Assembly (NCBI RefSeq): GCF_004944975.1
Contig: NZ_SPQG01000002.1
Span: 194,271 to 258,270, forward strand
DNA: 64,000 nucleotides
Direction of reading: 5' to 3'
Source: Halorhabdus amylolytica
Lineage (GTDB): Archaea; Halobacteriota; Halobacteria; Halobacteriales; Haloarculaceae
Part shown: positions 9,469 through 12,878 of the stretch, piece by piece
Position numbering within the stretch: position 1 is the first letter of the stretch
Layout of the letters: each line of letters opens with the position of its first letter
Translations under genes and position numbers: made by a program
Notes under the pieces: generated by a model
The model's input: the letters and a program-made list of their open reading frames with translations, nothing else
The model's database searches: none
Told to the model about the DNA's origin: nothing

Positions 9469-10005
9469 TCACTCCCGATCGGCGATCCGGATCGCCATCT
9501 CGAGTTCGAAACTTTCCGTGTTGCGGATCTCGAAGCCAACCTTCTGGTAGAGTCCGATCGCCGGTTCGTTCCAGCGTTCGACGGTCAGCCAGACCCGATC
9601 GATCCCCCGATCCTTTCCGTGACCCAGCAGGGTTCCCAGCAACTCCGTGCCGATGCCCGCCGACTGGTGGCTCCCGAGGACGAAGATCGCCAGTTCGTAG
9701 GCGTCCTCGTCGTCGGGGACCAACATCGAGTGGCCGACCGCGTCCTCACCGTGCCATGCGATCACGTTCAGACAGTCGTCCTCGAAGACCCGGTCGAGCC
9801 AGCGCCTGATCGAGCGTTCGCCGACCGGCGGGATCCCCTGGGCGCGGTCCTGCGGATCGAAGTCCTCGTACATGGCGACGAGGTCCTCACGGTCGTCGTT
9901 GGCGATCCGGACGACGATATCTCGACCCTCGTCGTCGACGAAATCGTGTGGCGGGGTCGGGAACGGTCCCGAGACCTCCGCCGGGTAAGAACGGTCCTCG
10001 CTCAT
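9469..10005 (-). CDS. GNAT-family N-acetyltransferase
   Basis: The 178-residue protein has the GNAT core. Motif A is seen in ELAIFVLGSHQSAGIGTELLGTLL, with the acetyl-CoA pyrophosphate loop QSAGIG, followed by a beta-bulge and the GLYQKVGFEI motif B region. Substrate is not predictable. Its start overlaps the stop of the upstream uspA gene by 4 bases, so the two form a translationally coupled pair. Confidence 0.85.
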   Translation of the reverse strand: MSEDRSYPAEVSGPFPTPPHDFVDDEGRDIVVRIANDDREDLVAMYEDFDPQDRAQGIPPVGERSIRRWLDRVFEDDCLNVIAWHGEDAVGHSMLVPDDEDAYELAIFVLGSHQSAGIGTELLGTLLGHGKDRGIDRVWLTVERWNEPAIGLYQKVGFEIRNTESFELEMAIRIADRE

Positions 10006-10370
10006 CTGATGAGAGTCACCGGCGTTTCGGCGTTGAGTACGACGAACTCGGCGATCGAGCCGAGTTGGATCTTTCCAAGCGGGCTCCGGGTACCACCGCC
10101 GATGACGAGGCGGTCGAACCCTTCCTCGTCGGCCAACTGGACCAGTTCGCCGCCGGGATGACTCGTGATCCGGCGGACCGTCGCCTCGACGTTAGCATCC
10201 TCGAGAACCGCTCGCACGTCCGATTCGACGTCAGTCAACGTCGCCTCGACCTCCTCGGAACTGAAGATGGCGACCGTTAGATCGTCGCCGGTCTCCTGGA
10301 CGCGCTCTATGGTCTCCTTGAGCGCCCGTCGGGAGTGATCGCTCCCGCCGACTCCCAGCAGAACCTTCAT
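10002..10370 (-). CDS. Universal stress protein (UspA family), short
   Basis: The compact 122-residue protein begins MKVLLGVGGSDHSRRAL and ends with LVIGGGTRSPLGKIQLGSIAEFVVL...PVTLI, retaining the ATP-loop G-x2-G-x9-GS arrangement. The ATG at 10370 follows a TTTTTTATCC box on the minus strand by about 21-30 bases. It is the first gene of a pair with the GNAT gene. Confidence 0.88.
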   Translation of the reverse strand: MKVLLGVGGSDHSRRALKETIERVQETGDDLTVAIFSSEEVEATLTDVESDVRAVLEDANVEATVRRITSHPGGELVQLADEEGFDRLVIGGGTRSPLGKIQLGSIAEFVVLNAETPVTLIR

Positions 10371-10390
10371 ACGCACCCCATTGGTGTAGC

Positions 10391-10400
10391 GGATAAAAAA
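10391..10400 (-). promoter_or_regulatory. TATA box of uspA-GNAT pair
   Basis: On the minus strand, TTTTTTATCC lies 21-30 bases before the ATG at 10370, consistent with a leaderless transcript. It is back to back with the triplicated promoter-like repeat serving the plus-strand gene. Confidence 0.45.
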
Positions 10401-10423
10401 TCTCCGTTCCGTGACCCGCCGAG

Positions 10424-10540
10424 GGCGTCGATACGCTTTTTCGATCCTGGACCGGACTGGATGGCGTCGATACGCTTTTTCGACCCCGGACCGGACTGGA
10501 TGGCGTCGATACGCTTTTTCGACCCCGGACCGGACTGGCT
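10424..10540 (+). repeat. Three tandem 39-bp units carrying a promoter-like box
   Basis: Units at 10424-10462, 10463-10501 and 10502-10540 share GGCGTCGATACGCTTTTTCG followed by a CC-rich half and GGACCGGACTGG. Copies 2 and 3 differ only at the end; copy 1 has two substitutions. The last unit ends 3 bases before the start codon at 10544. This places its CTTTTTC box about 30 bases upstream of the ATG, the usual leaderless TATA position. The duplication therefore appears to have copied a core promoter three times. Confidence 0.9.
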
Positions 10541-10543
10541 CGC

Positions 10544-11272
10544 ATGGTCGACGATCCTTCGGACGATACACGGCCGACCGCCGAGGCCCCCCAGTCGGTC
10601 GGTGAACCGGACGATGACGCCACTGAGGGCTCCGAGACGGCCGACGCCGATGTCGATGACTCACAGGCCGAAAGCGCGGCCACGGATGGTGAGGTTACAG
10701 GCGAACCCGGTGGAATGGATGACCCGTCGGACGCTGATCCGCCCGCGGACGTCCGTTCGTACGATCGCTTTCAGAAGATCGACGGCGGCACCTACGAGCG
10801 CGCCAACGACTTCCTGCGAGAACGCACCTACATCACGGCCAGGGAATGGGCGATCGCCCGGCTGTGTGCCGACTTCCGGACCGAGACCGGCGTCGAGATG
10901 ACCAAGATCGGCGAGAACCTGCCCGATCTCGTCCCGTTCATGACCGACACTTACTCCCCGCAGGCCGTCAATCAGGCGCGGGCCTCTTTCGAGGAGAAAG
11001 TCCGGATGGCCGGAGCGACCTTCCTCTACGGAGCGATGAGCGACTTCTTCACCGCCGACGAACTCGACGAGATGATGTACGAGGCCACCGAGGTCGCGAA
11101 GTTCCTCCTGGAGGTCGAAGGCGTCGAGCTTTCTGTCGACGAGGAACTCGAAGCCGAGGACCGCATCTCCGAAGTCATGCGCGACGTCCGGGAGCACAGC
11201 GTTGCACTCCGCCACGACGAGGTTGAATGCCCCGAATGCGGCCACGCCTTCCACGTCGACGGCCCGGAGTGA
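10544..11272 (+). CDS. Conserved haloarchaeal protein (DUF5806-like) with C-terminal zinc-binding motif
   Basis: The 242-residue protein has an acidic disordered N-terminus (about residues 1-68, rich in D, E, A and T). A conserved helical core follows, containing YDRFQKIDGGTYERAN and a METMTKIG-like region (EMTKIGENLPDLVPFM), and then a C-terminal CPECGHAFH half zinc ribbon. I recognise the core as the haloarchaeal DUF5806 family of unknown function, from memory. The gene lies between two sets of triplicated short repeats, one over its promoter and one starting at its stop codon. Confidence 0.8.
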   Translation: MVDDPSDDTRPTAEAPQSVGEPDDDATEGSETADADVDDSQAESAATDGEVTGEPGGMDDPSDADPPADVRSYDRFQKIDGGTYERANDFLRERTYITAREWAIARLCADFRTETGVEMTKIGENLPDLVPFMTDTYSPQAVNQARASFEEKVRMAGATFLYGAMSDFFTADELDEMMYEATEVAKFLLEVEGVELSVDEELEAEDRISEVMRDVREHSVALRHDEVECPECGHAFHVDGPE

Positions 11273-11274
11273 GT

Positions 11275-11373
11275 GACGGCACGGGTGATTGACGGCAAGG
11301 AATGGTCGACGGCACGGGTGATTGACGGCAAAGAATGGTCGACGGCACGGGTGATTGACGGCAAGGAATGGTC
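11275..11373 (+). repeat. Three tandem 33-bp units downstream of the DUF5806-like gene
   Basis: Units at 11275-11307, 11308-11340 and 11341-11373 read GACGGCACGGGTGATTGACG and then GCAA(G/A)GAATGGTC, with a single difference among copies. A partial fourth start follows at 11374. The preceding gene end (GTCGACGGCCCGGAGTGA) resembles the GTCGACGGCACGGGTGA part of the unit, so the array may have grown from the gene's 3' tail. It fills the gap to the convergent pyrC stop. There are no unique spacers, so it is not a CRISPR array. Confidence 0.92.
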
Positions 11374-11381
11374 GACGGCGG

Positions 11382-12878
11382 TCAGTCGTCGGCCCCGTCC
11401 TCTGGGAGTGCTTCCCGTCCACGATCCGCGGGTGAACCGTCCGACGTTTCACCAGCGGCCTTCCCGGCTGATTCCTCACCCCTTTCGATCGATTCGTCGC
11501 CGCTTTCGATCGATTCGTCGCCAGTCTCGGTCTTTTCCGGCTCCGCGTCCCCTTCGTTCTCGTCCGTCTCGTTCCCGTCATCTCCGGCGTCCGCTGCGGG
11601 ACGTGAGGCTCGAACGTTCCGGCCCTGGTGGTCGTGGAACGTCACGCCGTCATCCGTTCGCTCGTAGACGACAGTCCCCCTGACCATCGTGAGTTCGGGG
11701 AACAGGCCGCGCCAGCCTTCGAACGGCGTCCACTCGCAGTTCGTATGCAGCTCTTCGCCGTGGATCTCCCGTGTCGTGTCCGGATCGACCAGGACGAGAT
11801 CGGCGTCGTACCCCTCCGCGATCCGTCCTTTCCTCGGCAGGTCGAACAGTGCGGCCGGATTGGCGGCTGTCAGGTCCCGGACGCGTTCGTACGTGAGGTG
11901 GCCTCGTCGCGCTTCTTCGAGTAGCAGCGGGAGTGCGGTCTCGACGCCCGGGACGCCGCTGGGGGCGTCCCAGATGCTCGTGTCCTTCTCTTCGCGCGTG
12001 TGTGGCGCGTGGTCCGTGGCGACGATATCGACCTGTCCTTCTCTGACTCGATCGTAGACGCGCTCGCGGCGCTTCTCCCGACGTAGCGGCGGGTTCATCC
12101 GGCCGAACGTACCGAGTTCGTTGCTGTTGGAACGCGAGAGAAAGAGGTGATGTGGCGTGACCTCGCAACTGATTCCTGCCTCGCCAGCGGCGTCGATCGC
12201 CTCGGGCGTGCTCGCGTGGGCAATGTGCAGATCGACGTCGTACTCCGCCCCAAGCTCACAGACCTGCTCGACGGCCGCGATCTCGGCGCGAGCTGCCCGG
12301 TAAGCCGACCATGCGTCGGCGTCAGTCCGTTCGCGTGCACCCAGATTGAACCGACTGGCGTTCTCGGCGTGAACGGTGACGGTCACGCCGTGGCGTTCGG
12401 CCGCCTCGAGGGCCTCCCGGAAGCACCGCTCGTCGATCCCCATATCACCCGTCGAGTCCGCCAGGAAGACCTCGCCGAGTGCGAAGATCGGCCGCTCGAA
12501 CAACGAGTCCGGATCCCACCCGGGAACGACCCCGCCGTTGAGCCCGAAGTCGACCACCGAGTCCGCTGTGAACGTCGCTTTCTCGTCGAATGCGTCGCCG
12601 TCGACGGTCGGAGGGTCGGTGTTGGGCTGGTCGACGACGGTCGTGACGCCGCCCGCCGCGGCGCTTTTCGAACCCGTCGTCCAGGTCTCTTTCTGTGGGT
12701 CGCCCGGCTCCCGGAAGTGGACGTGCGTGTCGATCATGCCGGGGAGCAGGCGCTTGCCCGTCGCGTCGATCTCCCGCCCGTCCCCCGAGAGACCCTCGCC
12801 GACGCCCGTAATTCGCTCGCCGTCGATACGGACGTCCCGGTGGCGACCGTCGGGAAGTGTGGCGTTCCGGATGAGCAT
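11382..12878 (-). CDS. pyrC: Dihydroorotase with acidic C-terminal tail
   Basis: The 498-residue protein is an amidohydrolase of the type that cyclises carbamoyl-aspartate in pyrimidine synthesis. Metal-site signatures are GMIDTHVHFREPG near residue 48, VHAENASRF, IAHASTPEAI and DIVATDHAPH. The enzyme core ends near residue 430. The last 70 residues form an acidic, repetitive tail (GDESIESGDESIERGEES) without counterpart in typical dihydroorotases. The tail's coding DNA abuts the 33-bp repeat array. The function of the core is secure; the tail is probably disordered. Confidence 0.9.
   Translation of the reverse strand: MLIRNATLPDGRHRDVRIDGERITGVGEGLSGDGREIDATGKRLLPGMIDTHVHFREPGDPQKETWTTGSKSAAAGGVTTVVDQPNTDPPTVDGDAFDEKATFTADSVVDFGLNGGVVPGWDPDSLFERPIFALGEVFLADSTGDMGIDERCFREALEAAERHGVTVTVHAENASRFNLGARERTDADAWSAYRAARAEIAAVEQVCELGAEYDVDLHIAHASTPEAIDAAGEAGISCEVTPHHLFLSRSNSNELGTFGRMNPPLRREKRRERVYDRVREGQVDIVATDHAPHTREEKDTSIWDAPSGVPGVETALPLLLEEARRGHLTYERVRDLTAANPAALFDLPRKGRIAEGYDADLVLVDPDTTREIHGEELHTNCEWTPFEGWRGLFPELTMVRGTVVYERTDDGVTFHDHQGRNVRASRPAADAGDDGNETDENEGDAEPEKTETGDESIESGDESIERGEESAGKAAGETSDGSPADRGREALPEDGADD

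Follow-up and report, generated by a model that had tools for sequence, protein, structure and literature searches.

Several core promoters in series before one transcription unit are known among the haloarchaea from the rRNA operons. According to PMC4983044, up to five promoters precede these operons in Halobacterium cutirubrum and, in Haloferax volcanii, three start sites lie 5' of each 16S gene; the H. volcanii rRNA starts are about 100-150 nt apart, have been mapped experimentally and serve rRNA (PMC4983044). The same study describes 72% of the protein-coding transcripts of H. volcanii as leaderless and counts 139 genes, among 1851 expressed ones, with a leaderless as well as a leadered start, the leadered starts being weaker on average (PMC4983044). 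A Shine-Dalgarno sequence is unnecessary in the leaders of this species (PMC3986360).

In this study, we describe an array of three 39-bp units before a predicted leaderless gene of the DUF5806 family in Halorhabdus amylolytica (GCF_004944975.1, contig NZ_SPQG01000002.1), within a stretch of 64,000 nt (194,271-258,270 of the forward strand), hereafter the window. As at the rRNA operons, several predicted core promoters are placed in series before one haloarchaeal transcription unit, but here they are 39 bp apart and near-identical, occur in one species, precede a leaderless protein gene and are known from sequence alone. If an upstream unit is used, the gene would resemble the dual-start genes of H. 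volcanii in giving a leaderless mRNA together with one or two leadered ones, although the promoter pairs of those genes are not indicated, in the text consulted, as tandem duplicates of each other (PMC4983044). A literature search on tandem duplication of archaeal core promoters found no such study among the titles listed. In Aspergillus fumigatus, the TR34 and TR46 alleles of cyp51A duplicate a regulator site and are known to raise expression. The array is, like them, a short tandem duplication directly upstream of a gene and has a single-copy ancestor; in contrast to them, it is the core promoter itself that has been duplicated, and the evidence consists of genome sequence.

Results

Structure of the array

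An earlier note on this DNA had described three near-identical 39-bp units ending 3 bases 5' of the DUF5806 start codon, and every detail of that description was right: the array ends at 10540 and the ATG stands at 10544, which leaves the 3-base interval. TRF reported 39 bp x 2.9 copies over 10424-10538 with 97% match and a score of 216, the top-scoring tandem repeat of the 434-kb contig, and a separate repeat search gave three copies at a spacing of 39 bases. Unit 2 is the same as unit 3 apart from the last bases, being identical over the core, and unit 1 departs from both by two T/C differences, both 3' of the box (Table 1). The last CTTTTTC is found 24-30 nt 5' of the ATG and the other two 39 and 78 bases further upstream, both as the note had claimed, the former near the TATA position of a leaderless gene. 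Across the 3.46-Mb genome, the sequence GAYACGCTTTTTC has three occurrences, all of them inside the array, which excludes a chance origin. A plasmid collection searched with the array region gave no match. A coding role for the array was ruled out, as the conserved N-terminus begins at 10544 and relatives use the equivalent ATG.

Table 1. Coordinates of the array units and of neighbouring features (window numbering; promoter and start assignments are predictions)
Feature	Coordinates	Strand	Box	CTTTTTC	Predicted start	Matrix p	Remarks
Unit 1, distal core promoter copy	10424..10462	+	CGATACGCTTTTTC, 10429-10442	10436-10442	10466/10467	~1e-3	
Unit 2, middle core promoter copy	10463..10501	+	10468-10481	10475-10481	10505/10506	~4e-4	
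Unit 3, proximal core promoter copy	10502..10540	+	10507-10520	10514-10520	10544/10545	~4e-4	conserved leaderless position
DUF5806 (PF19122) gene, predicted target of the array	10544..11272	+					E 9e-65
Universal stress protein gene (Usp, PF00582)	10002..10370	-					divergent, left of the array
Predicted usp core promoter	10386..10409	-	GATTTTTTATCC		10369		best matrix match of the region
Out-of-frame ORF, 133 codons	10500..10901	+					begins at an upstream ATG; runs over the true start codon; translation putative

The predicted usp promoter does not overlap the array and flanks it at the unit 1 end. The DUF5806 product has 242 aa here, and the family was found in all 96 good-quality genomes searched of the Haloarculaceae. 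The protein has an acidic, variable N-terminus and a predicted helical core that is highly conserved, and a CPxCG tail is present here and in most relatives. A literature search found no functional study of DUF5806, and an AlphaFold2 model built from 17 sequences was unusable (mean pLDDT 44).

The repeated unit as a core promoter

Comparison was made across 115 DUF5806 loci of the Haloarculaceae, this one included, 102 of which have an alignable box. In all 102, the GA of a CGAYA motif stands 35-37 nt before the ATG (36 nt in 76, 35 nt in 21 and 37 nt in 5), counts that do not represent independent events, since the family loci are mutually related. Unit 3 has the most frequent spacing, 36 nt, and its CTTTTTC at 24-30 nt agrees with a leaderless core promoter, whose BRE and TATA are centred about 25-35 nt 5' of the start codon. 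The exact sequence CGAYACSCTTTTTC is found at the conserved place in 80 of the 113 loci searched. Conservation drops low a few bases 5' of the box, and on its 3' side, short of the start codon, an A at about -10 stands out most clearly among the further positions. The 39-bp unit spans from 5 bases 5' of the CGA up to near the start codon and thus holds all the conserved promoter positions. Each of the three units retains these positions intact, units 1 and 2 carrying every element of unit 3, so that three complete predicted core promoters stand in series.

The same box is present in other genomes at the same 35-37 nt spacing before purB and a sodium-dependent transporter, both names being read from the translations. 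A promoter matrix was trained on the other genes of the 434-kb contig, the array locus being left out; it recovers all three units with moderate p values, the scores of units 2 and 3 being equal (Table 1). Gene finder and matrix were both of simple kinds. The conserved spacing, the purB and transporter sites and the left-out matrix together argue strongly that the box CGATACGCTTTTTC of each unit represents the BRE plus TATA of a leaderless promoter, the core promoter of the DUF5806 gene. The suggestion that the repeated unit copies a core promoter is thus borne out by about 100 related loci, the purB and transporter boxes and the matrix, and the leaderless position proposed for the last copy by the spacing conserved across the 102 loci and by a matrix start at the ATG.

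Some further properties of the box were observed. CGAYACSCTTTTTC occurs in 124 of 146 genomes, usually at one to three sites, and the reversed pattern is nearly absent; it is common to DUF5806 and, in several genera, to purB at equal spacing. The TATA element of DUF5806 is far better conserved than other TATA elements. A weak inverted repeat surrounds the box at 10506-10524 (GTCGA-N9-TCGAC here; GCGA..TCGC or CCGA..TCGG in relatives), and in 27 of 47 loci, where about 17 would be expected, the bases on either side of the box are complementary, which, the loci being related, is no more than a lead.

Origin of the array

G001, the closest species compared, aligns with this locus on both flanks around a single unit, and a clean 78-bp gap, the length of two units, accounts for the difference. 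At the other 114 family loci the core promoter is free of tandem arrays. When 392 genomes of the order were screened for pairs of ACGCTTTTTC boxes separated by 12-42 bases, a screen that is blind to other promoter sequences, this genome was the only match. Relatives were compared at one genome per species and the array is known from one genome. Since G001 has a single copy, the other 114 loci lack the array and it is unique among the 392 genomes, the triplication is a derived state. The array is specific to this lineage and consists of a complete predicted core promoter in tandem triplicate. The identity of units 2 and 3 over the core, with unit 1 off by two bases, suggests that it arose in two steps, the second more recent.

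Replication slippage is the most likely maker of the array. Further arrays lie at and near DUF5806, which makes slippage at a repeat-prone locus the simplest origin, and the presence of three arrays in 1.1 kb suggests that the locus is prone to it. The second, likewise young (33 bp x 3.2, 97%, 11275-11379), begins 2 bases past the DUF5806 stop codon in the interval separating two convergent genes, and G001 lacks it as well; the third (21 bp x 2.5, 11470-11522) lies within the 3' end of the adjoining dihydroorotase-like gene. Among relatives, the N-terminal linker of DUF5806 in G005 (L005) contains a 30-bp array, and G124 (L106) and G072 (L128) have 63-bp and 75-bp arrays, respectively, whose ends are about 60-70 nt 5' of the ATG, just short of the promoter. 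The promoter matrix was also applied to the other intergenic arrays of the 434-kb contig, and in none did each unit give a promoter match.

Discussion

The explanation that best joins these observations, and the one we consider fairly probable, is a slippage-made, lineage-specific triplication of a complete leaderless core promoter, comprising BRE, TATA and the A at -10, in which unit 3 provides the main start and units 1 and 2 minor ones. The ancestral position is that of unit 3, which would yield the normal leaderless mRNA of the DUF5806 gene. Units 1 and 2, to judge by their intact elements, should be able to recruit TBP, TFB and RNA polymerase, and their starts, about 39 and 78 nt further 5', would contribute a minor quantity of leadered mRNA. 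From the general size of initiation complexes, neighbouring 39-bp units are probably not occupied simultaneously. Given the prevalence of leaderless transcripts in H. volcanii and the weakness of its leadered starts, a dominant start at the ATG, with at most a minor upstream addition, is to be expected. The leader of 39 nt that would run from the unit 2 start is without an ATG; that of 78 nt from the unit 1 start would hold the out-of-frame ATG at 10500. Three stacked promoters are plausible for this gene. One may go further and propose that, through its upstream copies, a strictly leaderless gene comes to yield leadered mRNAs as well, one of them with an overlapping out-of-frame uORF, the number of units setting the leaderless:leadered ratio and thereby tuning the DUF5806 protein, an extension that we regard as doubtful.

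It is possible, if rather unlikely, that the array is a neutral product of slippage in which unit 3 alone fires and units 1 and 2 are inert relics that leave expression unaffected. Arrays in other noncoding parts of the contig and near DUF5806 elsewhere carry no promoters, the 33-bp array behind the same gene has no promoter match, and unit 1 is already diverging, all of which fits such relics; the intactness of every conserved promoter position in the three units and the equal matrix scores of units 2 and 3 speak against them. A different arrangement, one promoter with duplicated activator sites, had been offered in the earlier note. The boxes would then be operator or activator sites and the array would multiply the binding sites of a regulator, which is distinctly improbable: it is the BRE and TATA themselves that have been copied, the conservation falls just upstream of them, before different genes the box stands at a constant distance, that of a TATA element, no second TATA element lies between box and ATG, the exact site is nowhere else in this genome, which leaves no regulon, and 39 bp is not an integer number of helical turns. 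In other genomes, too, most inspected sites with a clear start are at the TATA position. What such sites would explain is the conservation of the box beyond that of the general TATA element and, possibly, the weak inverted repeat that frames it in the related loci.

The same note had seen in the copy number a possible expression switch, for which the comparison offers no support, since the compared relatives have at most one copy and the array is found in one species. Near-identical head-to-tail units, and units 2 and 3 above all, are able to slip; even so, a population in which the unit number varies by slippage and sets DUF5806 expression is very unlikely, as the array occurs at one of the 115 family loci, a two-copy relative was not found, and a 39-bp unit in three copies is atypical of a fast-switching repeat. 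That the real number of units differs from three through an assembly error is more improbable still: the genome is a draft of 26 contigs, with N runs elsewhere on this contig, but a run of 117 bp fits into an ordinary short read, and unit 1 can be told from unit 3 by sequence. No compared relative has more than one copy of the promoter, and the array looks like a recent copying accident and not a proven expression switch.

All together, the triplicated core promoter constitutes a natural experiment, in which a complete leaderless core promoter is present once in the sister species and three times here, in an equal gene context. The locus allows a direct test of whether archaeal core promoters spaced by 39 bp are additive, competing or silent, and of the tolerance of a leaderless gene for an added leader. 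The comparison has, besides, revealed an unusually conserved core promoter, CGAYACSCTTTTTC, whose distance from the DUF5806 start is nearly constant across the family (usually 36 nt).
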